Shown piece by piece: positions 7,770-25,233 of a stretch of DNA of 64,000 nucleotides. Source of the DNA: Solirubrobacterales bacterium (GTDB taxonomy: Bacteria > Actinomycetota > Thermoleophilia > Solirubrobacterales > 70-9); the NCBI GenBank assembly GCA_017304845.1, contig JAFKLL010000012.1, forward strand, positions 62,001 through 126,000, written 5' to 3'. The notes under the pieces were generated by a model. That model did no database searches and was not told the origin of the DNA. It was given only the letters and a program-made list of their open reading frames with translations. Made by a program: the position numbers and the translations under genes. The stretch's first letter is position 1. The number at the start of each line of letters is the position of its first letter.

Positions 7770-7804
7770 GATATCTCCCTCGGATGGACTTCGTTCCACA
7801 GTAC

Positions 7805-7818: not shown

Positions 7819-7861
7819 GAGGCCAAGCTGCGGGCCGTCTGAAATTCGTTCAACCGATCAG

Positions 7862-7890: not shown

Positions 7891-7906
7891 CAACCACATG
7901 GTTGAA
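7889..7906. promoter_or_regulatory. ArsR-type operator overlapping -10 and start codon
   Basis: TTCAACCACATGGTTGAA is an almost perfect 18-base palindrome over the end of the -10 box and the first codons of the ArsR gene. A weaker related element, TTCAACCGATCAGTTGAC, lies at 7849-7866 across the -35 box. This arrangement suits autorepression. Confidence 0.7.
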
Positions 7907-8703: not shown

Positions 8704-9404
8704 GCATGGACACGCCAGAGATCGTCTCGGCCGACGAGTGGTCGGCCGCCCGCGAAGAACTGCTGATCAAGGAGAAGGAGCACACCCGGGCCCGCGACGC
8801 GCTCGCCGCCCAGCGACGCCGCATGCCCTGGACGGAGGTCGAGAAGGAGTACGAGTTCGAGGGCCCCGACGGCCGCCTCGGCCTGCGCGACATGTTCCAG
8901 GGCCGTCGCCAGCTCGTCGTCTACCGCTTCTTCTACGACCCCGACGTGAAGGGCTGGCCGGAGGTCGGTTGCCCCGGCTGTTCGATGCTGGCCGACCAGG
9001 TCGCCGACCCGGTCCACCTCAACGCGCGCGACACCACGCTCGCCTTCGTCTCCCGCGCCCCGCAGGAGAACCTGGCGGTCCTCAAGGAGCGGTTCGGCTG
9101 GGAGCACATCCCCTGGTTCACCCTGACCGACGGGTTCGACTCGGACTTCGGGGTCGGCGAGTGGCATGGCACCAACGCCTTCATCCAGGACGACGGCCGG
9201 ATCTACCGGACCTACTTCGTCGACGCTCGCGGAGACGAGGCGATGGGCAGCACCTGGGGCTACCTCGACATCACGGCGCTGGGCCGGCAGGAGGAGTGGG
9301 AGGACTCGCCCGAGGGCTACCCGCAGACGCCGCCCTACCAGTGGTGGCACCGCAACGACGAGTACCGGCCCGAGGACATCGCGGGAAGCGTGGGCGGATC
9401 ATGA
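8700..9404 (+). CDS. DUF899 (thioredoxin-like) family protein
   Basis: The 234-residue protein matches the DUF899 pattern: RRMPWTEVEKEYEFEGPDG near residues 40-60, LVVYRFFYDPD, VGCPGCSMLADQVA (a CxxC in a thioredoxin-like position), and the end QWWHRNDEY. DUF899 proteins have a thioredoxin-like fold; their reaction is not established. Start ATG 8700 overlaps the preceding stop and follows AGGAGAGGA. It is the third gene of the ArsR operon and ends by ATGA overlap with a micropeptide gene. Confidence 0.87.
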   Translation: MSMDTPEIVSADEWSAAREELLIKEKEHTRARDALAAQRRRMPWTEVEKEYEFEGPDGRLGLRDMFQGRRQLVVYRFFYDPDVKGWPEVGCPGCSMLADQVADPVHLNARDTTLAFVSRAPQENLAVLKERFGWEHIPWFTLTDGFDSDFGVGEWHGTNAFIQDDGRIYRTYFVDARGDEAMGSTWGYLDITALGRQEEWEDSPEGYPQTPPYQWWHRNDEYRPEDIAGSVGGS

Positions 9405-9511
9405 TCCTGGCCCACATCGGGCCGCTGCCGGTGGAGGAGCTGCTGGCCCTGGCGCCGGCGGTCGCCGGGGTGGGGCTGGCGGCGCGGGCCAGGTTCTTCC
9501 GGCGCCGCTAG
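9401..9511 (+). CDS. 36-residue micropeptide, last gene of the ArsR operon
   Basis: A short open frame starts at ATG 9401, overlapping the DUF899 stop as ATGA exactly like the two junctions before it. It encodes MILAHIGPLPVEELLALAPA followed by a valine/glycine/alanine stretch and ends ARARFFRRR. The middle is hydrophobic enough for one membrane segment with a basic cytoplasmic tail. I recall similar LAHxGGLPVEELL peptides in actinobacteria but cannot name a family. The three-step overlap pattern is the main evidence that it is translated. Confidence 0.6.
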   Translation: MILAHIGPLPVEELLALAPAVAGVGLAARARFFRRR

Positions 9512-10617
9512 ATCCCGTCGGCCAGCTGCTCGGCGTACTCCGCCAGCCGGGGGATGCCCTCGTCGAGGCTGGCGAAGAACGGGTCGTCGGTGGTGCCGGC
9601 CAGATGGCGCTTGCGGCTGCCCTCGAGCAGGATCGCCAGCTTCCAGATCGCCAGGCAGCGGTACCAGGGAAGCTGCTCCAGCGAACGGCCCGACCGCTCC
9701 GAGTACCGCTCCAGCAGCTCCTCGATCGGCGGGAAGTTGCGGCTGCCGGTGGCCAGGGAGAGGCCGAGCAGCAGGGAGGCGGGGCCGTCGTGCCCGAGCC
9801 ACATCGCGGCCAGGTAGCCGACGTCCGCCATCGGGTCGCCGAGGGTCGCCATCTCCCAGTCGAGCACCCCGGCCACGCGGGCGGGCGGGCCGGGATCGAA
9901 GATCACGTTGTCGAGCTTGAAGTCGCCGTGGACGATCGCCGGCGTGCCCGACTCGGGGATGCTGGTGGCGAGCCGGCCGCCGACCTGGACGATCGCCGGG
10001 ATCTCGCGGGTCTTGTTGACCTGCCACTGCCTCGACCAGAGATCGACCTGGCGCTTCAGATAGCCCGACGGGCGGCCCAGCTTCGAGAGCGGCCCCGCCG
10101 AGACGTCGACGGCATGCAGGCTGACCAGGGCGTCGACCAGCGCCTCGGCGGCGGCCCGCGCCTGCTCGGGCGTGTCCATCTCCGGCGGCAGCTCCCGCCG
10201 CACGACCAGCCCGTCGAGGCGTTCCATCAGATAGAAGGGCGCGCCGATCACCGACTCGTCGTGGCAGGCCATGACCGCCCGGGGCACCGGGACGCCGGTC
10301 TCGTACAGGGCCGAGATCAGCCGGTGCTCGCGCAGCACGTCATGGGCCTTCGGCGGGAAGGGCGGTCGCGGCGGCCGGCGCAGCACCCACCGTTCGCCGC
10401 CGCGGCTGACGAAGAAGGTCAGGTTCGAGTGGCCGGCCCGGACCCGTTCGATCTCGACCGGCCCGGCGCCCGGCAGGACCCGGCTGAGGCTCTCGCGGAT
10501 CAGCAGGGGCGGGATGTCCAGCCTGTCGGCCTGCTCCCTGGTCTCGACGATGTCGACGAGGTCTGTGGCGGTGGACTCCTGGGACACAGGGCCAGACTGA
10601 CCATCGAGAGCGGGCAA
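9508..10617 (-). CDS. Phosphotransferase (APH/lvaA-like) family protein
   Basis: The 369-residue protein has the kinase core of the aminoglycoside-phosphotransferase superfamily: an N-lobe with GHSNLTFFV and WVLRRPP, the catalytic loop VHGDFKLDN, and the metal-binding aspartate in LDWEMATLGDP. The LRRPP and DWEMATLGDP forms are typical of the ACAD11/LvaA group that phosphorylates hydroxyacyl-CoA, not antibiotics. The TTG start at 10617 is chosen because GGAGG lies eight bases before it. It is divergent from the dikinase-like gene at 10756 and is a paralogue of the gene at 20225. The substrate is not known. Confidence 0.83.
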   Translation of the reverse strand: MPALDGQSGPVSQESTATDLVDIVETREQADRLDIPPLLIRESLSRVLPGAGPVEIERVRAGHSNLTFFVSRGGERWVLRRPPRPPFPPKAHDVLREHRLISALYETGVPVPRAVMACHDESVIGAPFYLMERLDGLVVRRELPPEMDTPEQARAAAEALVDALVSLHAVDVSAGPLSKLGRPSGYLKRQVDLWSRQWQVNKTREIPAIVQVGGRLATSIPESGTPAIVHGDFKLDNVIFDPGPPARVAGVLDWEMATLGDPMADVGYLAAMWLGHDGPASLLLGLSLATGSRNFPPIEELLERYSERSGRSLEQLPWYRCLAIWKLAILLEGSRKRHLAGTTDDPFFASLDEGIPRLAEYAEQLADGI

Positions 10618-10692
10618 GTCGAAGGGCCTCCCCGCGAACGTTTGGAGGCAGTCACAAGAGGCGCCCCGGATCGGCCGCCCGAGTTTGGAGGA

Positions 10693-10752
10693 ATGGCCAA
10701 GACCAGCCCCGGCACGAACTGGCCCCGTCCGGGCGGAGCGTCGAGTATCTGA
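10693..10752 (+). other. Possible 19-residue leader ORF before the dikinase-like gene
   Basis: ATG at 10693 encodes MAKTSPGTNWPRPGGASSI and stops at 10752, three bases before the GTG of the dikinase-like gene. GGAGG lies immediately before the ATG, closer than is ideal. GTTTGGAGG occurs twice in this leader region (about 10639 and 10683). A coupling or attenuation role is only a suggestion. Confidence 0.25.
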
Positions 10753-10755
10753 GGC

Positions 10756-12630
10756 GTGACCACGACCAAGTTTGTCTACGAGTTTGGGTCAGGGACGGAG
10801 AGCCCCCGCATCCTGGGCGGCAAGGGAGCAAGCCTTGCCCGAATGACCAACCTTGGGCTGCCGATCCCGCCCGGCTTCGTGATCGGCACCGGCGCCTACC
10901 AGGCCTGGGCCGAGGCGGACGCCGACGCCGGCGAGATCCCGGCCGGCCTGCTGGACGAGATCGCCGAAGGCATCGACGGTCTGGAACGGGCGATCGGCCG
11001 CCGGCTCGGCGAGGTCGAGGATCCGCTGCTCGTCTCGGTCAGGTCGGGCGCCCCGGTCTCGATGCCGGGGATGATGGACACCCTGCTCAACGTCGGGCTG
11101 AACGACGAGACCATCGCGGCGCTGGCCGAGCGCACCGCCCCCGAGTTCGCCTGGGACATATACGTGAGGCTGCTCGCCACCTACGCCGAGGTGGTCCGCG
11201 GCATCAAGGTGAAGAAGCTCGGCGACGCGATCGACCCCGCGGCCCCCGCCCCGGAGCTGGCCGAGGCCTGGAAGCGGGTCATCGCCGAGCACGGCGAGCC
11301 GTTCCCGCAGTCGCCCCGCCGGCAGATCGAGGACGGCGTGATCGCGGTCTGGAAATCCTGGGACTCGCCCCGGGCGAAGCGGTACCGGCGCTTCGCCGGG
11401 ATCTCCGACTCGCTCGGGACCGGCGTGACCGTCCAGGCGATGGTCTTCGGCAACCGCGACGAGCGATCCGGCACCGGGGTCGTCTTCACCCGCGACCCCG
11501 GCACCGGCACCCCCGGCGCCTACGGGGACTTCCTGCTCCAAGCGCAGGGCGAAGACGTGGTCGCCGGCTCGCATGACCCCGAGCCGATCCAGGCGGCCGG
11601 CACCAGGCTCCCCGAGGCATTCGCCAAGCTCGAGGAGGCGCTGCCGGTGCTGGAGGCCAGCTACCGGGACATGTGCGACATCGAGTTCACGATCGAGACC
11701 GACAAGCTCTGGATCCTCCAGGCCCGGGTCGGGCAGCGGAGCGGCGCCGCCGCCGTGAGGATCGCGGTCGACCTGGTCGACCAGGGTCTGATCGACATCG
11801 AGACCGCGCTCGAACGGGTGCCGCTCTCGGCCCTCGAGGATCTCCAGCGGCCGGTCTTCGCCGCCGACCAGGAGTTCGACCTGCTCGGCTCCGGGGCGGC
11901 CGCCTCGCCCGGCGCGGCGATCGGCAAGGCGGTCTTCACCTCGCAGTTCGCCGAGGAGATGGCCGAGCAGGGCGAGGACGTGATCCTGGTCCGGCCCGAG
12001 ACCTCGCCGGCCGACATCGGCGGCATGATCGCCTCGAAGGGGATCGTCACCGCGCTCGGCGGGCGGGCCAGCCACGCGGCCGTGGTCGCCCGGGGGATCG
12101 GCCGCCCCGCGATCTGCGGCGTCAACGGGCTGGTCGTCGACGAGGAGGCCGGCACCGCCACCACCGCCGAGGGCCGGGTGATCCGCGAAGGCGACCTGCT
12201 CTCGGTCGACGGCCACGTCGGCCGGGTCATGGCCGGGGCGGTCGCGATGGCGCCCTCGCAGCCCGACCCGCGGCTGGCCCAGCTGCTCGCCTGGTGCGAG
12301 GAGCGTCGGCGGATCCCGATCCTGACCGAGGCCCCGGCCGGCCATGACGTGGTCGCCGACATGGGGGACACCGCCCGGGCCGGCAGCAAGGTCCTGGTCG
12401 ACCTGCCCTGGGAGGGCTCCGACTCGGCCAAGCTGCTGGAGCGGGTCGTCTCCGAGCTGAACGTCGACGCCGACCGCGAGCTGGTCCTGGCCCTGCCCGA
12501 ATCGCTCTGCGGAGTCGATCTGCGGCCCCCGGCCTCGGCCTGGTCGGCGATCGTCACGGCGGGGGACAACGAGTGGGCGGCCAGCCTGCTCAGCGCACGA
12601 ATCGAGTTGACCGAGGAGGGGCAGTCATGA
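10756..12630 (+). CDS. Pyruvate phosphate dikinase-like protein lacking the PEP/pyruvate barrel
   Basis: The 624-residue protein starts like pyruvate phosphate dikinase (GGKGASLARM and LPIPPGFVI near residues 20-45). It has an ATP-grasp nucleotide-binding region (VSVRSGAPVSMPGMMDT near 95-110, TGVVFTRDPGTG near 240) and a phosphohistidine swivel domain with His440 in GGRASHAAVVARGIG. Full PPDK is about 870 residues and ends in a TIM barrel that binds PEP/pyruvate. Here that barrel is missing, replaced by about 115 residues I do not recognise. It could phosphorylate its own histidine but needs another acceptor partner. The stop overlaps the start of the family X gene (ATGA), suggesting that partner. 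The GTG start follows GAGG. Confidence 0.85.
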   Translation: MTTTKFVYEFGSGTESPRILGGKGASLARMTNLGLPIPPGFVIGTGAYQAWAEADADAGEIPAGLLDEIAEGIDGLERAIGRRLGEVEDPLLVSVRSGAPVSMPGMMDTLLNVGLNDETIAALAERTAPEFAWDIYVRLLATYAEVVRGIKVKKLGDAIDPAAPAPELAEAWKRVIAEHGEPFPQSPRRQIEDGVIAVWKSWDSPRAKRYRRFAGISDSLGTGVTVQAMVFGNRDERSGTGVVFTRDPGTGTPGAYGDFLLQAQGEDVVAGSHDPEPIQAAGTRLPEAFAKLEEALPVLEASYRDMCDIEFTIETDKLWILQARVGQRSGAAAVRIAVDLVDQGLIDIETALERVPLSALEDLQRPVFAADQEFDLLGSGAAASPGAAIGKAVFTSQFAEEMAEQGEDVILVRPETSPADIGGMIASKGIVTALGGRASHAAVVARGIGRPAICGVNGLVVDEEAGTATTAEGRVIREGDLLSVDGHVGRVMAGAVAMAPSQPDPRLAQLLAWCEERRRIPILTEAPAGHDVVADMGDTARAGSKVLVDLPWEGSDSAKLLERVVSELNVDADRELVLALPESLCGVDLRPPASAWSAIVTAGDNEWAASLLSARIELTEEGQS

Positions 12631-14273
12631 GCTGGCGCATCACCGAAGAGCAGTTGCTGGACCTCAACTCGTTCCTGCAGCGCAGCGACGACGTGCTGGT
12701 CCACAACTGCCTGACCCGGACCGCCCAGGAATCGAAGCTCTTCCCGGTCCTGCCCTACCTGATGATGAGCATGATCGAGGGCTACTGGCGCTACCCGGAC
12801 CAGTTGCGCCGCTCGCTGGAGGTGATCTCCCCCGAGGACGTCGGCCACCGGGCCCGCAACGTCTCGACCCTGTTCTCCCGGCTCACCGCCTGGGGCATGG
12901 TCAACTACTACCTGAACGGCCGTTCGAACCTGATCCGCCTCGGCCTGATCGGACCGGCCGACAACCTCGAGGATCTCTGGCTGGTCTGCGACTGGTACAC
13001 CCGGTTCGCGAAGGCCTACAACCGGACCAGCGGGCACGTCAACGCGCTCGACGCCGGGGACATCTCCCCGACCCTCGAGGAACGCACCCTCCAGGTCTTC
13101 GAGGCGGACGCCTTCGCCTGCGACGCGGGGTTGAGCGCCGCCGCGGCCCGCTTCAACGCGATCGCCACCCAGTACAACTTCCTGGTCCACTGCGAGAGCC
13201 GCTCCGGCCTCCACTCGTCCGGCCCGTACCGGCTCGACGGCCGGCGCCTCATGCATGTGCGGGACTTCTTCAACCTGAGCGAGAGCACCCTGCCGTGGAT
13301 GGACGAGATCTCGGCCGAGATCCCTTTCAACAACCTCTCGCTGGTCGAGATCACCGACGGCGTCTCGATCGAGGTGACCGACTGGGCCACCGCCTACACG
13401 CAGCCCGAGTCGCATCAGGACCGGGTCATCGGGGTCGGCCTCTACACCTCCGACTTCCTGAGCGACCGCTACGTCCCGGTCGGGATGGGCTCCCGCCGGG
13501 AGCTGACCGACACGCTGAACGAGCTGACCGACCTGATGACCGAGGCGACCCGGGCGCTCTACCGGCGCTTCAGCGGGTACAGCATGGACCAGATGATCGA
13601 GGCCGGGATCCTGACCTACTACCAGGCCCCGGTCGACGTGCTGCGGATGGCCGGCCTGTACGAGCAGTCCGAGTGGGACACGATCGACCAGCGCACCCGC
13701 CGGCTCTGGACGCTCAACAACGAGGAGTACTCGCTGGACTCCTACATCGACCACTTCAACCTGGCGGCCGGCAAGCTCGGAGCGCAGAGCGAGTACTACC
13801 TGCATCCGATCTCCTACGGGGTGTGGCGTCGCGGCGGAGGCAGGGACGACCTGCCCCGGGCCGGTCGCACCCGCGAGTTCGTCCCGGCCGACGTGCTGGT
13901 CGACCACGACTACTCGCTGCGGGTCAACCCGGACGGGGTCGCCTCGGTCCAGGGCGATCGGAAGCTGCCGGAGAAGACCGCCGGGTTCGTCACCAGCCAG
14001 GGTCGGCTGACCCAGGACGAGATGAACCGGGCCGCCGCCGAGTGGTCGTCGCCGCTGCTTCGGCAGCCCTGGCGGAGCCTCGACGACGCCGCCGTCAAGT
14101 GGTCCTGGCAGGAGCCCGAGACAGCCGATCTGTACCGCTACACGCAGGAAGGATCGAGGCTGTTGGAGGGTCGTGGGGCGGGACTTCTCCGAAAGGACAT
14201 CGCGGAGATCCGCGAAGCGGCCGGCGAGCCCGCCTGGGCGAATGTTTCGTCCGCTGCGCCCGTCGCTGAATAG
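12627..14273 (+). CDS. Uncharacterised 'family X' protein, paralogue 1 (dikinase partner?)
   Basis: I do not recognise this 548-residue protein. It is a clear full-length paralogue of the 553-residue protein at 42772-44433, with many long identical stretches: HNCLTRTAQESKLFP (26-40), HCESR plus SGPYRL (188-203), VGLYTSDFL, DRYVPVGM, FNxA-type spacing, NEEYSLD, LTQDEMN and RYTQE. There is no signal peptide, membrane segment or obvious nucleotide-binding loop. It overlaps the dikinase-like gene by four bases, and the paralogue sits three bases from a gene for a free phosphohistidine domain. It may therefore be the acceptor-binding or catalytic subunit of a split dikinase; this is inference. The start ATG 12627 follows GAGGAGGGG. 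Confidence 0.75.
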   Translation: MSWRITEEQLLDLNSFLQRSDDVLVHNCLTRTAQESKLFPVLPYLMMSMIEGYWRYPDQLRRSLEVISPEDVGHRARNVSTLFSRLTAWGMVNYYLNGRSNLIRLGLIGPADNLEDLWLVCDWYTRFAKAYNRTSGHVNALDAGDISPTLEERTLQVFEADAFACDAGLSAAAARFNAIATQYNFLVHCESRSGLHSSGPYRLDGRRLMHVRDFFNLSESTLPWMDEISAEIPFNNLSLVEITDGVSIEVTDWATAYTQPESHQDRVIGVGLYTSDFLSDRYVPVGMGSRRELTDTLNELTDLMTEATRALYRRFSGYSMDQMIEAGILTYYQAPVDVLRMAGLYEQSEWDTIDQRTRRLWTLNNEEYSLDSYIDHFNLAAGKLGAQSEYYLHPISYGVWRRGGGRDDLPRAGRTREFVPADVLVDHDYSLRVNPDGVASVQGDRKLPEKTAGFVTSQGRLTQDEMNRAAAEWSSPLLRQPWRSLDDAAVKWSWQEPETADLYRYTQEGSRLLEGRGAGLLRKDIAEIREAAGEPAWANVSSAAPVAE

Positions 14274-14340
14274 CGCTTTGTAGAGCCAAAAACGCCGGGT
14301 ACTGTACGGCGTTGGAAAGTTCGACAAAGGAGTTTCGCGG

Positions 14341-14370
14341 ATGTCGGGCGACCCTCCGCAAAGAGCCTAA
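14341..14370 (+). other. Possible 9-residue leader ORF upstream of the ABC importer
   Basis: AAAGGAG followed eight bases later by ATG starts a frame MSGDPPQRA ending TAA at 14370. A small hairpin, GTGCC-GACAG-GGCAC, follows at 14388-14402 before the importer genes. The ribosome site is good, but the frame is so short that chance is possible. Confidence 0.25.
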
Positions 14371-14429
14371 TGTGACCTTCGAGGAGTGCCGACAGGGCAC
14401 CTGTGTTCCAAACGAGGAGAGGGTCGAGG

Positions 14430-15569
14430 ATGTCACGTTCACGAGCTTTACTGGCTGTGTTTGCAGCTTTGATGTTGTCCGCATTCGTGGTTGCCGGATG
14501 CGGGGGATCTGACGATTCCAGTTCAGGCGACAGCGGTTCCGGTTCCGGCAGCGGCAGCACCGAGAACGCACAGAAGATGGTCGACAAGCTGATGGACCCG
14601 GCCCAGGCCGAGTTCCCCAAGCCGACCGAGGCCTTCGATCCCGGCAAGGGCAAGGTCGCGGTCATCTCCTGCGGCAACGCGGGCATCAACTGCAAGGACG
14701 GCTCCGAGGACGCCACCGACGCCGCCAAGGCGATGGGCTGGACCTCCTCGCCGGTCTTCGACGGTGAGTTCAACCCGGCGAAGCAGTCCGGCTACGTCCG
14801 CCAGGCGATCCAGGAGAAGTACGACGCGATCGTGCTCGTCTCGATCGACGTGAACTCGATCAAGGCGGCCGTCCAGGCGGCGGCCGACGCGAAGATCCCG
14901 GTCACCTGCGTGATGTGCTCGAACCCCGGTCTCGAGGACATCGTCACCGACGTGACCACCGGCGGCACCGCCGACGGCCAGGCGATCGGCTACTGGACGG
15001 CGGCCGACTCGGGCGGCTCCGGCAAGGTGATCGCCTTCGACGACAAGTCGTTCCCGATCGTCGCCAAGCGCGTCGCCGCGGCGAAGCAGGTGCTGGCCGA
15101 CAACTGCCCCGACTGCGAGGTCGAGGAGAAGGAGATCGCCACCACCGAGCTGACCGAGCCCGGTCCCCCGACCTGGACCGCGACGCTGACCGCGAACCCT
15201 CCGGGCTCGTTCCAGTACGCCTGGGCCGCCTATGACCCGTTCGCGATCCCGATGGCGAAGACGGCGGAGCAGCAGGGCCGCGACGACATCAAGATCACCG
15301 GCTACGACGCCTCCCCGGACTACGTCCAGCTGATCAAGCAGGGCGGCGACGCCGCCGCGACCACCGCGGCTCCGTTCGAGTACGCGGCCTGGGGCGCCGT
15401 GGACGAGGCCGCCCGGGCGGCGGCCGGGGTCGACCAGTGGGACGGCACCAAGCTGCCGGTCATGTTGGTCACCAAGGACAACGCCGACGATCCAGCCCTC
15501 GAAGCCGGGTTCTTCAACCCGCCCTTCGATTTCAAGGCCGACTTCCAGAAGCTCTGGGGTCAGTCCTGA
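14430..15569 (+). CDS. ABC transporter sugar-type substrate-binding lipoprotein
   Basis: The 379-residue protein has a lipoprotein signal ending in VVAGCGG (lipid cysteine about residue 24), a Ser/Gly-rich linker, and a periplasmic-binding-protein fold of the ribose/galactose type (KVAVISCGNAGIN, YDAIVLVSIDVNSIKAAVQAA, KVIAFDD, ITGYDASPDYVQLI). It captures the solute outside the cell for the ATPase and permease that follow. The ligand cannot be read directly. The importer follows the dikinase-like and family X genes after 156 bases, so the imported compound may be their substrate. ATG 14430 is chosen over the upstream ATG at 14403, which would put extra charged residues before the signal. Confidence 0.88.
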   Translation: MSRSRALLAVFAALMLSAFVVAGCGGSDDSSSGDSGSGSGSGSTENAQKMVDKLMDPAQAEFPKPTEAFDPGKGKVAVISCGNAGINCKDGSEDATDAAKAMGWTSSPVFDGEFNPAKQSGYVRQAIQEKYDAIVLVSIDVNSIKAAVQAAADAKIPVTCVMCSNPGLEDIVTDVTTGGTADGQAIGYWTAADSGGSGKVIAFDDKSFPIVAKRVAAAKQVLADNCPDCEVEEKEIATTELTEPGPPTWTATLTANPPGSFQYAWAAYDPFAIPMAKTAEQQGRDDIKITGYDASPDYVQLIKQGGDAAATTAAPFEYAAWGAVDEAARAAAGVDQWDGTKLPVMLVTKDNADDPALEAGFFNPPFDFKADFQKLWGQS

Positions 15570-15633
15570 TCAGACGACGGAATGGGGCGGGCTCCGGCCC
15601 GCCCCGCTTCGTCACCGGATGCCAGGAGGAGAG

Positions 15634-17076
15634 ATGAGCAGCACACCGAGACTGACCGTCACCGGGTTGAAGAAGTCCTTCGGCTCGAACAGCGTCCTCC
15701 ACGGCATCGACCTGGCCTTCGAGCCGGGGCAGTTCATCGGGCTGATGGGCCCGAACGGGGCCGGCAAGTCCACCCTGATCAAGATTCTCGCCGGGCTGTA
15801 CTCGGCCGACGAGGGGACGATCAAGCTGGACGACGAGACGGTCCGCAATCTCGGTTCCCGCAGGGAGTGCGGGTTCATCCACCAGGATCTCGGCCTGATC
15901 GAGGACATGTCGATCTGCGAGAACCTGCGGCTCGGGCAGCAGCCGATGAAGCTGGTCGGCCCGATCCTGAACTTGAAGCGCGAGCGCGAGGCCGCCGCCG
16001 AGGCGATCGCCCGGGTCGGCTTGGACCGGGATGTCGACACCCCGGTCAGCGCGCTCTCGCCGGGGGAGAAGACCCTGGTCGCGGTCGCCCGGACCCTGGA
16101 TCGGGGCGCCCGGATCCTGTTCGTCGACGAGGCGACCTCGACCCTGCCGGCCGCCGATTCGCGCCGTCTCACGGACGCGCTGCGACGCACGGTCGACGAC
16201 GGCGCGACCGTGATCATGGTCAGCCACAAGCTTTCCGAGATCCTCGACGACACCGACCGCGTGGTGGTGATCCTCGACGGCGAGATCTCGACCGACGAGC
16301 CGACCGCCTCACTGGACCGCGAGGGCCTGGTCGAGCGGCTGGTCGCGAAGGAGTCGGAGATGGCGGTCGAGGGCGAGGCCGACGCCTGCGAGATCGGCGA
16401 GGAGCTGATCGCCCTGGAGGCGGCCTGCGGCGGCCGGGCGGGGCCGGTCGATCTGGTCCTCAGGGGCGGCGAGATCACCGGCCTGACCGGGCTGCCCGGC
16501 TCCGGCCTGCATGACATCGGCTTTCTGGTCCACGGTTCGATGCGGCCCGTGAGTGGCCGGGTCCGCGCGTCGCGCAAGATCAGGCGGGCGCTGGTCCCGC
16601 CGCATCGGGAGACCCAGGGCGGGATCCCGGTCAGCTCGATCCGCGAGAACCTGACGCTTTCCTCGCTGCCCCGCTGGCGTGGCTTCGGCCGGCTCCTCGC
16701 CCTGGGGCAGGAGGGCCGGGACGCTCAGGGGATGGCGGATGAGCTCAACGTGGTCCCCGGCGATGCCGAGGGTCCGTACGGAGTGCTTTCCGGCGGCAAC
16801 AAGCAGAAGGTGATCTTCGGCCGGGTGCTCCTGAAGGAGCCTCAGGTCTATGTGCTTTGCGAGCCGACCCGTGGGGTCGACATCGCGACCCGGATGGAGA
16901 TCTACCGGCTGATCCGCAAGCTGCGCTCGAAGGACGTGGCGGTGCTGGTGATCAGCTCCGATTCGGAGGACCTGTTCTCGGTCTGCGACCGGATCGGGGT
17001 GGTTGACGACGGGACGGTGGAGGAGCTGGTCCCGGCGGAAGAGATGAACACACAACAGTTGGAGGCATTGGTCTGA
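15634..17076 (+). CDS. Sugar ABC transporter ATP-binding protein, two ABC domains (RbsA/XylG-like)
   Basis: The 480-residue protein has two fused ABC domains. The first has an intact Walker A (GPNGAGKST) and a changed signature LSPGEKTLVA. The second has a degenerate Walker A (GLTGLPGSGLHD) but a good signature LSGGNKQKVIFGRVL followed by EPTRGVD. This asymmetry is normal for RbsA/XylG ATPases. The length is near the usual 490-510. The ATG at 15634 follows AGGAGGAG, and the stop overlaps the permease start (TGATG). It energises import of the solute bound by the upstream lipoprotein. Confidence 0.9.
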   Translation: MSSTPRLTVTGLKKSFGSNSVLHGIDLAFEPGQFIGLMGPNGAGKSTLIKILAGLYSADEGTIKLDDETVRNLGSRRECGFIHQDLGLIEDMSICENLRLGQQPMKLVGPILNLKREREAAAEAIARVGLDRDVDTPVSALSPGEKTLVAVARTLDRGARILFVDEATSTLPAADSRRLTDALRRTVDDGATVIMVSHKLSEILDDTDRVVVILDGEISTDEPTASLDREGLVERLVAKESEMAVEGEADACEIGEELIALEAACGGRAGPVDLVLRGGEITGLTGLPGSGLHDIGFLVHGSMRPVSGRVRASRKIRRALVPPHRETQGGIPVSSIRENLTLSSLPRWRGFGRLLALGQEGRDAQGMADELNVVPGDAEGPYGVLSGGNKQKVIFGRVLLKEPQVYVLCEPTRGVDIATRMEIYRLIRKLRSKDVAVLVISSDSEDLFSVCDRIGVVDDGTVEELVPAEEMNTQQLEALV

Positions 17077-18275
17077 TGAGCAGCGTGACGGCAGGGAAAG
17101 TCGCGGCCTCCGGGCCGTCGGCATTGAAGCGGTTCGCCACCTCCCCGACGATGCAGGGCTCGCTCACCACGATCGCCTTCCTGCTGCTCTTCGTCGGCTA
17201 CTGGATCTGGCTGGGGGACACCTTCGTCAACGTCGACGCGCGCCTGCTCGACGTCCATCAGAACGCGCCGATCCTGATCCTCGGCCTGGCGGTGATGGTG
17301 ACCTTGATCGCCGGCCAGTTCGACCTCTCGGTCGGCGGCATGTGCACCCTGACCACCTTCCTCTCGATCGGGTTGGTGGTGCAGAAGGACTGGGCCTTCT
17401 GGATGGTGCTGGTGGCCTGCGTCCTGGCCGGGCTGATCGGCGGCCTGATCAACGGGCTGCTGGTGGTGAAGCTGGGGGTCAACACGTTCATCGCGACGCT
17501 CGGCACGGGCGGCGTGTTCCTGGGGATTTCGAGCGTCCTCTTCGGCGGCACCCAGCTGGCGCCGACCGATACGAGCCCGCAGCTCCCCTCCTGGTTCTCG
17601 GGCGACGGCTCGCTCGGCTCGTTCGGCGAGAAGTTCCCCTCGGTGATCGTCTGGATCGGCCTGGCGGCCTGCGCCTACGGGCTGTTCCGCTGGATTCAGG
17701 CGAGAAAGCCCGAGGGTCGGACGGACACCTCGTGGACCGTGATCTCGGCCGCGATCGTGGTGGTGCTGGCGGCGATCCTCTTCGCCCTGAACCTGCCGGC
17801 CTGGGTGGACGGGGTGTCCCTGACGATCGGCGTGCTGCTGATCATCGGGCTGGTCCTGTGGGTGGTGCTCCGCTACACGACGTACGGGCGGTACCTGTAC
17901 GCGACCGGGGCGAACCCCGAGGCGGCGAGGCTGGCCGGCGTGAAGACGGACCGGGAGACGATCCTGGCGTTCGTGATCGGCGGTCTCCTGGCCGCGCTCG
18001 CCGGGGTGATCCTGGCCGCGAACCAGGGCGCGGCCTCACCGGACATCGGTACCGGCTTCCTCCTGCCCGCGTTCGCCGCCGCCTTCCTGGGCACGGTGAT
18101 CATGTCCACGGGCCGCTTCCACGTCTGGGGAACCCTGATCGGAGGCACCTTCCTGGTCTGGGTCACACAGGGCTTGATCGTCGGCGGAGTTCCGTTCACC
18201 TGGACGGACGTCATCAACGGCGTCGTTTTGGTTGCCGCCGTTGCCGTATCGACGATCTTCCGCCGCCGCGCCTGA
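17076..18275 (+). CDS. Sugar ABC transporter permease (XylH/RbsC-like)
   Basis: The 399-residue integral membrane protein has about ten hydrophobic helices and the permease hallmarks DLSVGGMCTLT, GLINGLLVVKLGVNTFIATLGT and YATGANPEAARLAGV. It is longer than RbsC and similar in length to XylH, because of an extra segment around residues 160-245 (including GDGSLGSFGEKFPS and a charged loop before another helix). It is translationally coupled to the ATPase and completes the importer. Confidence 0.9.
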   Translation: MSSVTAGKVAASGPSALKRFATSPTMQGSLTTIAFLLLFVGYWIWLGDTFVNVDARLLDVHQNAPILILGLAVMVTLIAGQFDLSVGGMCTLTTFLSIGLVVQKDWAFWMVLVACVLAGLIGGLINGLLVVKLGVNTFIATLGTGGVFLGISSVLFGGTQLAPTDTSPQLPSWFSGDGSLGSFGEKFPSVIVWIGLAACAYGLFRWIQARKPEGRTDTSWTVISAAIVVVLAAILFALNLPAWVDGVSLTIGVLLIIGLVLWVVLRYTTYGRYLYATGANPEAARLAGVKTDRETILAFVIGGLLAALAGVILAANQGAASPDIGTGFLLPAFAAAFLGTVIMSTGRFHVWGTLIGGTFLVWVTQGLIVGGVPFTWTDVINGVVLVAAVAVSTIFRRRA

Positions 18276-19437: not shown

Positions 19438-20205
19438 TTAGAAGGCTGGCTGGCGTTTGGCGGCGAAGGCCTCGAGCCCCTCGGCAGCCTCATCATCCGC
19501 AAAAACACGATCAGCGAGCTCAAGCTCCTTCTCGAACGCCTCGTCGATCGGCAGGTCGATCCCCTCGCGCACCGAGGCCTTCACCCGCTGAACTGCCAGC
19601 GGTCCGTTGCGGGCGATTCGCTTCGCCATCGCCATCGCGGCCTCGTCCAGATCGTCCTTCGGCACGACGCGGTTGACCAGGCCGAGCTCGTAGGCGCGGT
19701 CGGCGTTGAAGAACTCGCCGCTCAGGAGGATCTCCATGGCTATCGCTCGGGGCACCTGCCTTGGCAGTCGCACCGTGCCGCCACCGGCGGGGAAGAGGCC
19801 CCAGTTGACTTCCGGTAGGCCGAAGCGGGCGTGGTCGGCGGTGATCCGGATGTCGGTGGCGAGCATCACCTCGAAGCCTCCGCCCATGCAGTCGCCGTTG
19901 ATGGCGGCGATGATGGGCTTGTCGATCGGGTCGATCTCGCCCTTGAGGTAGACCTCCTGGTTGTCGGCGGCGGTGAGCTGGCCGGCCTGGATCTTCGGGA
20001 CCAGCTTCTTCAGGTTCGCCCCGGCGCAGAAGGACTTGTCGCCCGCGCCGGTGATCACGGCCACCCGGAGCGAATCGTCGGTGGCGAAGCGGCGCCAGGC
20101 GGCGACCAGCTCCTCCATCGTCTCCGGGTCCATCGCGTTGCGGGAGGCCGGGTCGTCGAAGGTGACCCAGAGGATCTGCTCGTCCCTGACTTCGGTGCGA
20201 ATCAC
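19438..20205 (-). CDS. Enoyl-CoA hydratase/isomerase family protein
   Basis: The 255-residue crotonase has the CoA-binding/oxyanion strands SFCAGANLKKL and NGDCMGGGFEVM and the glutamate-bearing LPEVNWGLFPAGGG. It hydrates enoyl-CoA or acts on a related acyl-CoA. The GTG at 20205 is chosen because VIRTEVRD aligns with the first residues (MIRTEVRD) of the paralogue at 30402 and AAAGG precedes it. It lies 19 bases behind the APH-type kinase gene on the same strand, so they form an operon divergent from the acyl-CoA dehydrogenase operon. Confidence 0.88.
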   Translation of the reverse strand: MIRTEVRDEQILWVTFDDPASRNAMDPETMEELVAAWRRFATDDSLRVAVITGAGDKSFCAGANLKKLVPKIQAGQLTAADNQEVYLKGEIDPIDKPIIAAINGDCMGGGFEVMLATDIRITADHARFGLPEVNWGLFPAGGGTVRLPRQVPRAIAMEILLSGEFFNADRAYELGLVNRVVPKDDLDEAAMAMAKRIARNGPLAVQRVKASVREGIDLPIDEAFEKELELADRVFADDEAAEGLEAFAAKRQPAF

Positions 20206-20224
20206 TTGCTGCCTTTCGTTCGTT

Positions 20225-21238
20225 TCAATCGAGACCGGCGAAACCGGCCGCCTCTTCCAGCAGGGCGGGCACGTCATGCTCCAGCCGGACCGCGTACTCG
20301 GTGTCGAGCAGACCCGCCACGTACTGGGCGTAGGCCCCCTCGACGATCGCGGCGAGCTTCCAGAACGCCACCGCCATGTACCACTCGATGTGCTCGGTGG
20401 AACGGCCCGTCAGCTCGGTGTACCGGGCGGCCAGCTCGCGGCGGCTCGGGGTGAACGGCAGGCGAGAGACACCCTGCACCCTCGGCATCGCCATCTGCTT
20501 CGGCCGGTCAGGCCCCCAGAACGCCAGGCAGATGCCGAGATCGAAAAGGGGATCGCCGATCGTCGACATCTCCCAGTCGATGATCGCGCTCACCTTCACC
20601 TCGTCACCGAACGTGATCAGCGAGTTGTCGAGGTGGAAGTCGCCGTGCATGATCGCCGGGGGCTGCTCCGGCGGCAGGTTCGTCGACAGCCACTCCGCCA
20701 GCTGATGGAACCGGGGCAGGTTGCGCACCTGGATCCGGTCGTACTGCTTCGCCCAGCGCGGCACCTGCCGCTCCAGGAAACCCTCCGGGCGCCCGAAGTC
20801 CGAGAGCCCAGCCGCCTGCCAGTCGACCTGGTGGAGCTTCGCCAGAGCATCGATCAGGGCCGGGCCGATCCCGGCCGCTGCGACGTCCGGATCGACTCCC
20901 TCCGGCAGATGGTCGGTCAGCGCGAACCCGTCGACCGCCTCCATCACCAGGAACTGGCCGCCGTTCTCGTCGGTGCCCAGGCCGATCGCCGCCGGCGAAG
21001 GCACGTCCTGGTCGGTCAGCGCCTCGAGGATCCGGAACTCGCGCTCCATGCTGTGGGCGCTCGGGTCGATCGCATCGGCCGGGGGACGACGCAGGACGAA
21101 GCTGCCCTCGGCGTCGGTGAGCAGCAGGGTCTCGTTCGAGTTGCCGCCGCTCAGCGGGGTCAGCTCGAACGGGCCACGGCCGGGCAGGGCGTCGGCGAGC
21201 CACTCGCCCAGCCGGTCGGAAATGGTCAGCGTGCTCAT
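20225..21238 (-). CDS. Phosphotransferase family protein (LvaA/ACAD11 kinase-like)
   Basis: The 337-residue APH-fold kinase shows GGNSNETLLL, FVLRRPP, the catalytic loop MHGDFHLDNSL and the metal aspartate in IIDWEMSTIGDP. The LRRPP and DWEMSTIGDP forms match the kinase domain of human ACAD11 and bacterial LvaA, which phosphorylate 4-hydroxyacyl-CoA. Its divergent neighbour at 21362 is an ACAD11-type dehydrogenase, which strengthens that reading. It probably works in the cytosol on a hydroxyacyl-CoA; the chain length is unknown. Confidence 0.87.
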   Translation of the reverse strand: MSTLTISDRLGEWLADALPGRGPFELTPLSGGNSNETLLLTDAEGSFVLRRPPADAIDPSAHSMEREFRILEALTDQDVPSPAAIGLGTDENGGQFLVMEAVDGFALTDHLPEGVDPDVAAAGIGPALIDALAKLHQVDWQAAGLSDFGRPEGFLERQVPRWAKQYDRIQVRNLPRFHQLAEWLSTNLPPEQPPAIMHGDFHLDNSLITFGDEVKVSAIIDWEMSTIGDPLFDLGICLAFWGPDRPKQMAMPRVQGVSRLPFTPSRRELAARYTELTGRSTEHIEWYMAVAFWKLAAIVEGAYAQYVAGLLDTEYAVRLEHDVPALLEEAAGFAGLD

Positions 21239-21361
21239 GGGGAGATCATCGCGCGCCGCCGGCCCCGACCCGGCCGCTTCCCGGCCCTGCTTTGGAGAAC
21301 TCCCTAAGCAGAGCCGTTCAGGCCGGGGGCTGGTTGGTGGGCATCACATAGGTTGAATCGC

Positions 21362-22651
21362 ATGAGCTGGGACTTTGAGACCGAACCGGAATTCCAAGAG
21401 AAACTCGACTGGATGCGGGAGTTCGTGCGGGAGGAGATCTACCCGCTCGAGACGCTCGACATCGACTACCTCCAGTTCCGCGAGCTGATCAAGCCGCTGC
21501 AGCAGGAGGTCAAGGACCGGGAGCTCTGGGGCGTCCACCTCAGCCCCGAGCAGGGCGGCGCCGGCTACGGCCAGGTCAAGCTCGGGCTCATGCACGAGAT
21601 CCTCGGCGCCTCCGAGCTCGCCCCGCCGGTCTTCGGGGTCCACGCGCCCGACACCGGCAACTCCGAACTGATCGCTGTAGCCGGGGATGAGGAACAGGTC
21701 GAGAAATGGGGCAAGCCGGTGCTGAACGGCGAGCTGTGGAGCGCCTACTCGATGACCGAAGAAGGCCGCGGCTCCGACCCGACCATGCTCCAGACCTCGG
21801 CCGTCCTCGACGGTGACGAGTGGGTCGTCAACGGGGTCAAGTTCTGTGTCGGCAACGCCAACCGCTCCGACTTCCACATCGTGCTCTGCCGGACCGAGGA
21901 CGACGAGGGAACCGCGAAGCACAGGCGGCACTCGATGATCATCGTCCCGACCGATACCGAAGGCGTGATCAACCGGCAGATCGGGCTGATGCACGACCCC
22001 AACTCCGAGGGCCTGGTCCACACTCACTGCGAGGTCACCTACGACAACGTGCGGGTCCCGGCCGAGAACCTGCTCGGTGGCCGCGGCGAGGCCTTCGTGC
22101 TCGCCCAGAAGCGGCTCGGCCCCGGCCGCATCCATCACTGCATGCGCTGGATGGGCGTCTCCCGCCGCGCGCTTGACGCGCTCTGCGAACGGGCGGTGTC
22201 GAAGTCCGTCCACGGCGGTCTGCTGGCCGACAAGGAGATGGTCCAGGATTGGATCGCCACCTCGGCCGCGGAGATCGAAGCGGCCCGGCTGCTCACCCTC
22301 CAGGCCGCCTGGAAGATCGACCAGGTCGGGGCCTCCGGCGCCCGTCAGGAGATCGCGATGATCAAGTACCACGGGGCGAAGGTCATGCATGACGTGCTCG
22401 ACCGCGCGATTCAGATCCATGGCGCGCTCGGCTACTCGACCGACATGCCGCTCGAGGAGGCCTACCGCTGGTCCCGGGCCGCCCGGCTCTACGACGGGCC
22501 GGACGAGGTCCACAAGGTCTCGGTCGCCCGCCGCATCCTCAAGAACTACGAGCCACGCGACAAGCCGAGCGACCACATCCCGACCCGCCGGCAGGCGGCG
22601 ATGGAGAAGTGGGGCCCGGTCATCGAGCGGCTCGAGACCTCCAGCGTCTGA
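21362..22651 (+). CDS. Acyl-CoA dehydrogenase, ACAD10/11 (LvaC) type
   Basis: The 429-residue flavoprotein has the usual ACAD order: helical N-domain, beta-domain with YSMTEEGRGSDP, and C-domain. The stretch RLGPGRIHHCMRWMG, then IAMIKYHGAKV and YDGPDEVH, closely follow the ACAD10/ACAD11 C-domain as I know it. That group takes the phosphorylated 4-hydroxyacyl-CoA, eliminates phosphate and yields an enoyl-CoA. MSWDFETEPEF at ATG 21362 fits the family start better than TTG at 21353. The stop overlaps the HAD gene (TGATG). The neighbouring kinase at 20225 supports a joint pathway. Confidence 0.9.
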   Translation: MSWDFETEPEFQEKLDWMREFVREEIYPLETLDIDYLQFRELIKPLQQEVKDRELWGVHLSPEQGGAGYGQVKLGLMHEILGASELAPPVFGVHAPDTGNSELIAVAGDEEQVEKWGKPVLNGELWSAYSMTEEGRGSDPTMLQTSAVLDGDEWVVNGVKFCVGNANRSDFHIVLCRTEDDEGTAKHRRHSMIIVPTDTEGVINRQIGLMHDPNSEGLVHTHCEVTYDNVRVPAENLLGGRGEAFVLAQKRLGPGRIHHCMRWMGVSRRALDALCERAVSKSVHGGLLADKEMVQDWIATSAAEIEAARLLTLQAAWKIDQVGASGARQEIAMIKYHGAKVMHDVLDRAIQIHGALGYSTDMPLEEAYRWSRAARLYDGPDEVHKVSVARRILKNYEPRDKPSDHIPTRRQAAMEKWGPVIERLETSSV

Positions 22652-23298
22652 TGACCGAGGTCCGGCCGGCAAAGGCGCTGCTGATCGACTTCGGCGGGGT
22701 CCTCACCTCGAGCGTCTTCGACTCCTTCCGCGAGTACGCGGGCGGGGTCGGGCCGGACCCGTTGCTGATCGAGCAGCTCTTCCGTGAGGACGGTCCCTCG
22801 CAGGAGGCGCTGGTCGCGCATGAGACGGGGAAGGTGCCGCTGGAGGAGTTCGAGATCATCTTCGCCCAGCGGCTGGGCCACCACGGCGCCACGGTCGAGC
22901 CGGAAGGCCTCGTCTCGCAGCTCACCCAGAACCTCCGGCCGGACGAGGAGATGATCGAGGCGACCCGCCGGATCGGCGCCGCCGGCTTCCCGACCGTGCT
23001 GGTCTCGAACTCGCTCGGCTACGACGCCTACGACGGCTACGACCTCGAGGAGCTGCTCGACCACGTGATCCTCTCCGGGCATGTCGGGGTGCGGAAGCCG
23101 TCGCGGAAGATCTACGAGATGGGGGCGGAGGCGGCCGGGGTCGCGCCCGAGGACTGCGTGATGGTCGACGACCTCGCCCAGAACATCAGCGGGGCGGAAC
23201 GGCTCGGCATGCAGGGCGTGGTCCACCTCCACTCGAAGGACACCGTTGCGGTGCTCCAGGAAATGTTCGGCATCGACCTGGGAGGTTCGAATGAGTGA
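22651..23298 (+). CDS. HAD-superfamily protein, ACAD10 N-domain-like
   Basis: The 215-residue HAD protein begins KALLIDFGGVLTSS; later motifs are VLVSNSLGY (motif II), a lysine in RKPSRKIYEMG (motif III) and MVDDLAQNISGAERLG (motif IV). In motif I the second aspartate is replaced by glycine (DFGG instead of DxDG). This is also seen in the HAD domain of ACAD10 as I recall it, and it would remove the usual general acid. It may therefore be a weak phosphatase or a regulatory subunit. It is translationally coupled to the dehydrogenase and overlaps the following SDR gene by eight bases. Confidence 0.83.
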   Translation: MTEVRPAKALLIDFGGVLTSSVFDSFREYAGGVGPDPLLIEQLFREDGPSQEALVAHETGKVPLEEFEIIFAQRLGHHGATVEPEGLVSQLTQNLRPDEEMIEATRRIGAAGFPTVLVSNSLGYDAYDGYDLEELLDHVILSGHVGVRKPSRKIYEMGAEAAGVAPEDCVMVDDLAQNISGAERLGMQGVVHLHSKDTVAVLQEMFGIDLGGSNE

Positions 23299-24067
23299 TC
23301 GCACCGTGCTCGTGACCGGCGCCAGCCGGGGGATCGGCCGGGGCATAGCCCTCGCCTTCGCCGGGGAGGGGGACACCGTGGTGCTCTCCGCCCGCACGGC
23401 CTCCGGGCTGGAGGAGACCGCCGCCGCGGCCTGGGAACGCGGCGCCTCGGCGGTGGCCGCCGTCTCGGCCGACCTCTCCGACCCCGACGACTGCGAGAAG
23501 CTGATCGGCCGGGCCACCGAGGCCGTCGGGTCGTCCCCGCTGGTCGTGGTCCACTGCGCCGGGATCACCGAGAACGCCGCGGTCGACCAGATGAGCCTCG
23601 ACGGCTGGAACCGCGCCTTCCAGGTCAACGTCACCTCCGCTCTCCAGATCGCCGGCAAGGCGATCCCGGCGATGAAGGAGGCGGGCTGGGGAAGGTTCAT
23701 CGCGATCGGCTCGCTCTACTCGCGGATGGGTGTCTCCCACACCGCCGCCTACACCTCCTCCAAGCACGCCCTGCTCGGGCTGATCCGGGTGCTCTCGGCC
23801 GAGCTGGTCGGCAAGGGCGTCACCGCCAATGCGATCCTGCCCGGCTTCGTCGACACCGAGATGGTCCGTTCCGAAGCGGCCGCCGCCGCCGAGGCCCGGG
23901 ACCTGACGGTCGACGAGGTGATCAAGAAGTTCCTGCGGATCCAGCCGCTCGGACGGATGGTCACGACCGAGGAGGTCGGGGCGCTCGCCGTCTATCTCGC
24001 CAGCGATGCCGGCGCGCCGATCACCGGCCAGGGAATCAACATCGACGGCGGGGCGATGCAGCCATGA
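23291..24067 (+). CDS. Short-chain dehydrogenase/reductase
   Basis: The 258-residue SDR has the NAD(P) motif VTGASRGIGRG, the HCAGITENAA segment and the active-site YTSSK. The C-terminus GQGINIDGGAMQP is typical of FabG-like enzymes. It would oxidise or reduce a hydroxy/keto acyl intermediate. The ATG at 23291 lies inside the end of the HAD gene; its stop overlaps the CoA-transferase start (ATGA). It belongs to the four-gene operon with the ACAD11-type dehydrogenase. Confidence 0.88.
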   Translation: MSDRTVLVTGASRGIGRGIALAFAGEGDTVVLSARTASGLEETAAAAWERGASAVAAVSADLSDPDDCEKLIGRATEAVGSSPLVVVHCAGITENAAVDQMSLDGWNRAFQVNVTSALQIAGKAIPAMKEAGWGRFIAIGSLYSRMGVSHTAAYTSSKHALLGLIRVLSAELVGKGVTANAILPGFVDTEMVRSEAAAAAEARDLTVDEVIKKFLRIQPLGRMVTTEEVGALAVYLASDAGAPITGQGINIDGGAMQP

Positions 24068-25233
24068 GCAGGCCCGGCGAAGCCAAAGGTCCCCTGCAGG
24101 GAGTTCGCGTCCTCGATCTGACCCGACTGCTGCCGGGCGGCTTCGCCACCGCGATGCTGGCGGATCTCGGCGCCGAGGTGATCAAGGTCGAGCAGCCCGG
24201 CCAGGGCGACTACATGCGTTGGGACGACCCCAAGATCGGGGCCGAATCCGCCCACAACTGGACCAACGACCGCAACAAGAAATCGATCGCCCTCGACCTG
24301 AAGGATCCGCGCGCGGTCGAGGCGCTGAAGAAGCTGGCCGAGACCGCGGACGTGATCTTCGAAGGCTTCCGACCCGGGGTGGTCGACCGCCTCGGGGTCG
24401 GGTACGAGGCGATGAAGGAGGTCAACCCGAAGATCGTCTACTGCTCGCTGACCGGATACGGGCAGGACGGGCCGCTGGTCAAGGAGCCGGGCCATGACCT
24501 CAACTACGCGGCCCGGGCCGGCATCACCTCGATCACCGGGCCGGCCGATGGGGTGCCGACCCTGATCGGGGTGCAGATCGCCGATCTCGGCGGCGGCGCG
24601 CTGATATCGATCACCGGCATCCTGGCCGCCCTGTACCGCGCCGCGACCACCGGCGAGGGCGACTACGTCGACGTCGCGATGACCGACGGCGCCTTCGCCT
24701 GGACCTCGATCTGGATGGGCGACCACTTCGCGACCGGGGAGGTCCCGAAGGCCGGCGAGATGATGCTGAACGGAGCCAGCCCCTGCTACCAGGTGTACGA
24801 GTGCTCGGACGGCAAGTTCCTCACCGTGGCCGCCGTCGAGGAGCAGTTCTTCGCCGAGCTCTGCGAGGTGATCGGACGGCCCGAGCTCGCCTCGACCCAG
24901 TTCGAGACCGACCAGATCCCGATGTGGCGGGAGATCTTCCGCGAGAAGACCAGGGACGAGTGGCTGGAATTGTTCGTCGGCCACGACGTCTGCGTCGGCC
25001 CGGTCAACGACTTCGCCGAGGCGGCCGCCGACCCGCAGCTCAACCACCGCGAGATGATCGTCGAGCTGGAGCGGGAGGGGCACGGCACCTTCAAGCAGAT
25101 CGGCAACCCGATCAAGCTGCGAGAGCACCCGGCGGAGATCCGCACCGCCTCACCGAGGCTCGGCGAGCACACGGCCGAGATCCTCACCGAGGCCGGCCTC
25201 AGCCAAGACGAGATCACCTACCTGACACCCTGA
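24064..25233 (+). CDS. CaiB/BaiF family CoA-transferase or acyl-CoA racemase
   Basis: The 389-residue protein matches the family III CoA-transferase/alpha-methylacyl-CoA racemase group: VLDLTRLLPGGFATAMLADLGAEVIKVE near the N-terminus, NRNKKS-type NDRNKKSIALDLK, and the catalytic aspartate in EPGHDLNYAARAG. It could move CoA to a new acid or epimerise 2-methylacyl-CoA before beta-oxidation. The GHDLNYAA form is common in racemases. It is the last gene of the operon and is followed by a strong hairpin at 25251. Confidence 0.88.
   Translation: MSRPGEAKGPLQGVRVLDLTRLLPGGFATAMLADLGAEVIKVEQPGQGDYMRWDDPKIGAESAHNWTNDRNKKSIALDLKDPRAVEALKKLAETADVIFEGFRPGVVDRLGVGYEAMKEVNPKIVYCSLTGYGQDGPLVKEPGHDLNYAARAGITSITGPADGVPTLIGVQIADLGGGALISITGILAALYRAATTGEGDYVDVAMTDGAFAWTSIWMGDHFATGEVPKAGEMMLNGASPCYQVYECSDGKFLTVAAVEEQFFAELCEVIGRPELASTQFETDQIPMWREIFREKTRDEWLELFVGHDVCVGPVNDFAEAAADPQLNHREMIVELEREGHGTFKQIGNPIKLREHPAEIRTASPRLGEHTAEILTEAGLSQDEITYLTP

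Follow-up and report, generated by a model that had tools for sequence, protein, structure and literature searches.

Within a 64,000-nucleotide stretch of Solirubrobacterales DNA (the window; taken from a draft genome, here G000, of 2.49 Mb and 74.7% completeness), six genes in two divergent groups at 19438-25233 likely form a module that brings 4-hydroxy acids into beta-oxidation. It would do so by phosphorylating 4-hydroxyacyl-CoA and eliminating the phosphate, with a free-standing HAD protein acting in trans. This reading is drawn from gene identities, diagnostic residues, gene overlaps and a conserved HAD-kinase pairing, all of them features of the sequences. Separate genes for an APH kinase and its partner dehydrogenase are a known bacterial state (LvaA/LvaC), and only the association with HAD is new: a free HAD accompanies the kinase across one order and in much of a phylum sample. 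The initial annotation had placed the three parts of human ACAD10, namely, kinase, acyl-CoA dehydrogenase (ACAD) and HAD, side by side as separate genes. Open reading frames and Pfam searches confirmed all six genes, with coordinates and kinds as given there; what had gone unmentioned is that the kinase and an enoyl-CoA hydratase lie on the strand opposite to the other four genes, with 123 bp between the start codons of kinase and dehydrogenase. The four plus-strand genes look translationally coupled because their reading frames overlap, by TGATG between the dehydrogenase and HAD genes, by 8 nt between HAD and the short-chain dehydrogenase (SDR), and by ATGA between the SDR and the CaiB-type gene. 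The SDR most likely starts at 23291, preceded by GGGAGG, and the hydratase probably starts with GTG at 20205.

Among solved structures, ACAD11 was the best match of the dehydrogenase (264 bits), with ordinary ACADs scoring about 117 bits lower (147 bits at best); 4hr3, a second structure of the HCMR type (RLGPGRVHHAMR), reached 240 bits. In mouse ACAD11, R626, H634 and R637 hold the 4-phosphate and D753 is the catalytic base, and the available part of PMC12440821 describes these four residues as specific to ACAD10/11 and LvaC. All five active-site residues taken from that source are present in our protein: ACAD11 R626, R631, H634, R637 and D753 align with R254, R259, H262, R265 and D381 (numbered along frame P0002, which begins at 21353), of which R259 corresponds to a general ACAD residue. 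The phosphate clamp is thus retained as R254, H262 and R265 in RLGPGRIHHCMR, and a catalytic aspartate, D381 within YDGPDEVH, replaces glutamate, two ordinary ACADs of the same genome reading YEG at this position. In a quick tree of 125 rows (SH-aLRT only; L003, L006 and L009, all <300 amino acids, were dropped), 119 sequences of the HCMR type grouped in a single clade (SH-aLRT 100), with six ordinary ACADs outside it. There, the window dehydrogenase stands beside L020 (Solirubrobacterales, 72% identity) and near the second copy of its own genome on contig C14 (54%); it adjoins the RLGGGR..AMR group. Thus, score, diagnostic residues and tree support membership in the ACAD10/11/LvaC superfamily, and the enzyme is predicted to eliminate phosphate from 4-phosphoacyl-CoA. 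The ACAD10/11-like assignment of the initial annotation therefore stands at the level of the superfamily, but both the dehydrogenase and the kinase fall outside the sub-clade of mouse ACAD11.

The kinase matched the structures 9o56 (203 bits) and 3dxp (164 bits) as well as the ACAD11 kinase domain (148 bits). The catalytic aspartate, supporting asparagine and CoA-contacting arginine of ACAD11 (D220, N225 and R176) correspond to its D200, N205 and R157. R66 adjoins the alpha-C glutamate; the R86 numbering in the available part of PMC12440821 falls off the aligned arginine of the chain. The structural matches and the aligned D200, N205 and R157 support a kinase of the LvaA/ACAD11 kind. In the kinase tree (quick, SH-aLRT only; matches of <=110 bits or <230 amino acids were dropped), the ACAD11 kinase groups with 3dxp and L041 and the window kinase lies elsewhere, which lowers orthology to ACAD11 and leaves kinship to the wider family untouched. 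The window holds a second LvaA-like kinase on the minus strand at 9508-10617, with no HAD beside it; it is 39% identical to the module kinase and 56% identical to L163, and it groups with HAD-adjacent kinases of related genomes.

The association of HAD with the kinase was traced in 40 related genomes. Dehydrogenases were counted at E<=1e-70 and kinases at E<=1e-35, weaker ones being left uncounted, and close HADs were delimited by a gap in score (116 to 168 bits versus 79 for the next best). An HCMR-type dehydrogenase was found in 35 genomes, a kinase in 34 (36 kinases) and a close HAD in 13. Every close HAD (13/13) lay within 300 bp of an LvaA-like kinase, a pairing that spans three families of one order and both relative orientations, and four genomes of the same family share the order dehydrogenase, opposite-strand kinase, HAD. 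By comparison, 0 of 16 loci of a more distant HAD paralogue in these relatives included a kinase at a distance of up to 1.5 kb. Seen from the 36 kinases, 23 had an HCMR-type dehydrogenase no more than 1.2 kb away, 13 were beside HAD, 6 had both and 6 neither, so that 30 adjoined at least one of the two partners. A kinase also occurred within 5 kb in 44 of 80 dehydrogenase loci from named genomes (33/57 where the full 5-kb flanks were present). Because 23/36 kinases and 44/80 dehydrogenase loci show the pairing, kinase-dehydrogenase proximity is not due to chance.

The nearest named homologues place the window probably in Actinomycetota, and a wider survey of this phylum (296 genomes, E<=1e-25; G018, G028, G034 and G037 are shared with the set of relatives) located HAD in 36 genomes including our own, at 37 places, 36 of them outside the window. 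Twenty of these 36 adjoin a kinase and 4 more are clustered with an HCMR-type dehydrogenase (24/36 linked). In the HAD tree, a branch of 0.71 (support 96/98) separates a clade of 49 HADs, 39 of them linked, from 18 HADs that are unlinked; among the linked rows, L191 owes its label to a 77-bit ACAD 6.7 kb away, and 38/49 are linked without it. Linkage changed label 7 times along this tree versus 21.6 times in shuffles, with none of 500 shuffles as low. The window HAD groups with L184, L185, L186 and L074 (100/100), whose clusters all include the dehydrogenase. Among Pseudomonadota, 19 of 299 genomes had an HAD match at E<=1e-25, and a kinase lay within 1.5 kb in 0 of 20 loci (18 from that search plus L206 and L207); these HADs form a separate group in a second, quick tree (SH-aLRT only). 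A kinase-linked HAD universal in bacteria was accordingly rejected. No fused form of HAD, kinase and dehydrogenase was present in 237 loci, and a 971-amino-acid frame in L241, considered as a fusion, turned out to encode a kinase, its second match being spurious. Altogether, since 13/13 close HADs and 24/36 phylum HADs are linked versus 0/16 loci of the paralogue and 0/20 loci of Pseudomonadota, HAD probably works in trans as a partner of the kinase step, whether as a regulator or a corrective phosphatase. The inclusion of HAD in the module by the initial annotation is thus borne out by a reproducible kinase association in relatives, while its separate kinase and dehydrogenase genes proved ordinary for bacteria.

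For what HAD may do at this step, ACAD10 offers a comparison. According to the available part of PMC11342911, the ACAD10 HAD has one motif aspartate only and negligible phosphatase activity, yet a mutation in HAD raised kinase activity; the domain is thus reported to hold its kinase back. The window HAD likewise has a single motif I aspartate, reading D-F-G-G and lacking the second aspartate of DxD, and all 16 aligned clade members read D-x-G-G. It scored 83 bits against TIGR02247 (epoxide hydrolase N-terminal domain-like phosphatase), below the cut-off of 125.4, and is therefore related to that family without being a member. An AlphaFold2 model built from five sequences (pLDDT 88) was closest to the phosphatase domain of soluble epoxide hydrolase (sEH) and to Escherichia coli YihX. 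We considered D-x-G as proof of an inactive HAD and rejected it, as YihX and unlinked HADs share the motif.

An active HAD would be a corrective phosphatase instead of a noncatalytic regulator of the ACAD10 type: it would hydrolyze 4-phospho acids or 4-phosphoacyl-CoA left behind by the dehydrogenase and so free stalled intermediate. We regard this as a serious contender that falls somewhat short of an even chance. The fold of the model agrees with it, and all or nearly all of the 16 clade members retain the motif I aspartate, motif II Ser/Thr-Asn, motif III lysine and motif IV Asp-Asp, which would be unusual for a dead scaffold; moreover, YihX, annotated as a phosphatase, reads D-L-G too and has a transition-state-analogue structure (8pno). 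Set against this, the glycine two positions after the nucleophile in 16/16 members is in line with the single aspartate and negligible HAD phosphatase activity that the available part of PMC11342911 reports for ACAD10, and a phosphatase acting on a pathway intermediate would waste ATP.

For the module as a whole, we infer the chemistry from what has been published about LvaA/LvaC and ACAD10/11. The hydroxy acid would be activated as a CoA thioester, a step for which the CoA-transferase may be responsible; the kinase would phosphorylate the 4-hydroxyl, and the HCMR-type dehydrogenase, using FAD transiently, would remove the phosphate to give 2-enoyl-CoA. The hydratase and SDR would continue beta-oxidation; alternatively, the SDR may feed in 4-oxo acids in the manner of LvaD. 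HAD would serve as a separate partner of the kinase step, the counterpart of the ACAD10 HAD domain, and would limit the build-up of phospho-intermediates by restraining the kinase or removing misplaced phosphate. Taken by itself, we give this role at the kinase step an even chance. A broader proposal, a shade less probable, is that these genes represent an actinobacterial unfused ACAD10 system in which free HAD acts in trans, that HAD and kinase form a conserved unit independent of kinase-dehydrogenase fusion, and that HAD is a general controller of phospho-hydroxyacyl-CoA levels.

The accessory genes fit such a route in part. The initial annotation had called the CaiB-type protein a transferase/racemase; it is nearer the CoA-transferases (SUGCT, 250 bits; formyl-CoA transferase, 241 bits), with racemases lower (about 197 to 212), so the transferase half of that name is favored. 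A role in CoA activation of the hydroxy acid is possible. The SDR is presumably a 4-oxo/4-hydroxy or 3-hydroxyacyl-CoA dehydrogenase, and the hydratase scored 271 bits against the EchA19 model, below its cut-off of 400. These genes had been thought to complete a 4-hydroxy-acid route, and all three are present. Because no acyl-CoA ligase or thiolase adjoins the module, the complete route would need activation by the CoA-transferase and a thiolase from elsewhere; a Pfam scan of 26 window proteins gave no match to an AMP-binding (LvaE-type) ligase. The window holds a family III CoA-transferase where the clusters of L185 and L186 have a ligase. The L185 cluster (G165) comprises a thiolase, HAD, ligase, TetR regulator, hydratase, dehydrogenase and SDR. 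L186 (G320, 4728-15121) carries Zn-dehydrogenases, HAD, a phosphotriesterase (PTE)-family lactonase homologue, an AMP-binding acyl-CoA ligase, a TetR regulator, an APH kinase, an HCMR dehydrogenase and an SDR. The PTE-family protein adjoining its HAD scored 419 bits against 4if2 ("Phosphotriesterase homology protein," which we take to be Mycobacterium tuberculosis PPH) and 269 bits against the aryldialkylphosphatase 2vc5 (presumably the Sulfolobus lactonase SsoPox). Hydrolysis of gamma-lactones yields 4-hydroxy acids, and PTE-like lactonases are described as hydrolyzing gamma-lactones in the available part of PMC3468530. L186 is therefore a candidate gamma-lactone pathway, leading from lactone to 4-hydroxy acid to 4-hydroxyacyl-CoA.

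Both the substrate and the CoA activation step are surmised, and the module might instead serve a special hydroxyacyl-CoA, such as one derived from a polar hydroxy acid or lactone imported by the sugar-type ABC transporter encoded just upstream. We think this unlikely, at perhaps one case in four. The EchA19-like character of the hydratase speaks for it, as do related transporter parts near the C14 copy (ATPase and binding protein, 2/3) and in G249 (3/3). These two are the only such cases among 196 loci, and the binding protein resembles ribose-binding proteins weakly (59 bits), with no ligand readable from its sequence. The transporter is thus a possible, weakly linked uptake system; as a regular part of the module it was rejected.

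Several observations weigh against a 4-hydroxy acid module with HAD as a partner. Seventeen genomes of the same genus lack a close HAD (0/17), though 14/17 have the kinase and 14/17 the dehydrogenase, so the pathway does not depend on HAD. Of the 13 kinases adjacent to HAD, seven lack an HCMR-type dehydrogenase within 1.2 kb, and none was found in 16-kb regions around two of these seven. Twelve of the 36 phylum HADs lack a strong link, several unlinked ones lying near contig ends (L188, L197, L191), and D-x-G is not specific to linked HADs, being present in unlinked HADs and YihX as well. The window kinase is diverged, with 34 to 41% identity to the other kinases of its own genome and the 40 relatives, and in the tree it lies outside the group of HAD-adjacent kinases, whereas the second kinase lies inside. 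The missing neighboring ligase and thiolase belong here too. If HAD were a passenger with an unrelated role, placed there by operon shuffling, then the unlinked phylum HADs, the genus that keeps kinase and dehydrogenase without it, and the unlinked Pseudomonadota HADs would be expected. We nevertheless hold this to be improbable, as the 13/13 pairing extends over three families and both orientations, a long branch sets off the linked HAD clade, and HAD overlaps the dehydrogenase gene in the window. That the dehydrogenase is an ordinary ACAD and the kinase acts on something else, as the promiscuity of the APH fold and the divergence of the window kinase might allow, is very improbable given the catalytic aspartate, the full phosphate-binding set and the margin of about 117 bits by which it is nearer ACAD11 than any ordinary ACAD of known structure.

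A module with HAD in trans shares features with several known systems and differs from each. With the Pseudomonas putida lva operon, as far as the available part of its description extends, it has in common separate genes for the APH kinase and the HCMR-type dehydrogenase and the residues reported for LvaC and ACAD10/11. An SDR is also found in both clusters, LvaD being, as we assume, the SDR of the operon. Unlike the lva operon, the window has a divergent kinase, a CoA-transferase where the operon has an LvaE-type ligase, no recognized LvaB or LvaR, and HAD; the ACAD10 HAD is described in the available part of PMC12440821 as lacking homology to any lva protein. Mammalian ACAD10 has the same three domain types and an HAD with a single motif I aspartate, but here the parts are separate genes in the order kinase/dehydrogenase-HAD. 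The ACAD10 order HAD-kinase-dehydrogenase recurs as gene order on one strand in 3 Nocardioides loci. Mammalian ACAD11 shares the active-site residues of both domains; it has no HAD, and the window kinase and dehydrogenase belong to other sub-clades. YihX and the sEH N-terminal phosphatase, both HAD-IA proteins, share the fold of the window HAD (YihX also D-x-G), but identity is about 20 to 22% in structural matches and no link to a 4-hydroxyacyl-CoA pathway is known.

Because HAD is a protein of its own here, with its gene beside that of the kinase, it can be added, omitted or deleted independently, which offers a simple system for the question of the ACAD10 HAD. The survey yields many natural HAD-kinase pairs together with a genus having kinase and dehydrogenase without close HAD, a built-in comparison, and the clusters hint at the way in which such bacteria utilize gamma-lactones and 4-hydroxy acids. 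In the open-access literature, judged by titles and the beginnings of abstracts and with subscription papers mostly outside its scope, no paper on such a bacterial HAD-kinase pair was found; the relevant items were the two papers on ACAD10/11, PMC12440821 and PMC11342911. Table 1 lists the features of the module and the adjacent transporter.

Table 1. Genes and intergenic region of the putative 4-hydroxy acid module and the neighboring transporter (window positions)
Feature	Position	Strand	Evidence
APH kinase, LvaA/ACAD11-like, predicted 4-hydroxyacyl-CoA kinase	20225-21238	minus	APH PF01636, E=4.8e-51
HCMR-type acyl-CoA dehydrogenase, ACAD10/11/LvaC superfamily	21362-22651	plus	Acyl-CoA_dh_1, E=5e-37; contains RLGPGRIHHCMR
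Free-standing HAD-IA protein, kinase-linked clade	22651 (ATG)-23298	plus	PF00702, E=1.8e-12; TIGR02247-related
Short-chain dehydrogenase (SDR)	23291-24067	plus	PF13561, E=1.5e-50; PDB: hydroxybutyrate dehydrogenase-like
Family III CoA-transferase (CaiB-type)	24064-25233	plus	PF02515, E=3.2e-111
Enoyl-CoA hydratase, EchA19-like	19438 to probably 20205	minus, same direction as kinase	PF00378, E=8e-64
Divergent intergenic region, presumed promoters of both gene groups	21239-21361
Sugar-type ABC transporter (binding protein, ATPase, permease)	14403-18275	plus	Peripla_BP_4, ABC_tran, BPD_transp_2

The second HCMR-type dehydrogenase copy of G000, on contig C14 (locus L018), is accompanied by a thiolase and an SDR; on the other strand are an IclR-type regulator, hydratases, ordinary dehydrogenases, a kinase and sugar-type ABC transporter parts. 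Both G000 copies fall outside the clade formed by those of the 17 same-genus genomes, and this placement suggests horizontal gain or a binning problem. Elsewhere in the window, a tRNA scan found no tRNA. A plus-strand gene at 10756-14273, encoding a protein with PPDK_N and PEP-utilizer mobile domains, overlaps that of a 566-amino-acid protein without a Pfam match. The segment 36001-40000 has a G+C content of 0.598 versus 0.67 to 0.71 elsewhere, with a drop in coding GC3 (G+C at third codon positions) as well, and is possibly a recently acquired segment. Finally, one of the surveyed dehydrogenase loci, L065 (or L068), is titled a Klebsiella pneumoniae metagenome-assembled genome (MAG); it is near-identical here to a Gammaproteobacteria MAG, its dehydrogenase is 42% identical, and the Klebsiella pneumoniae label within this pair looks wrong.

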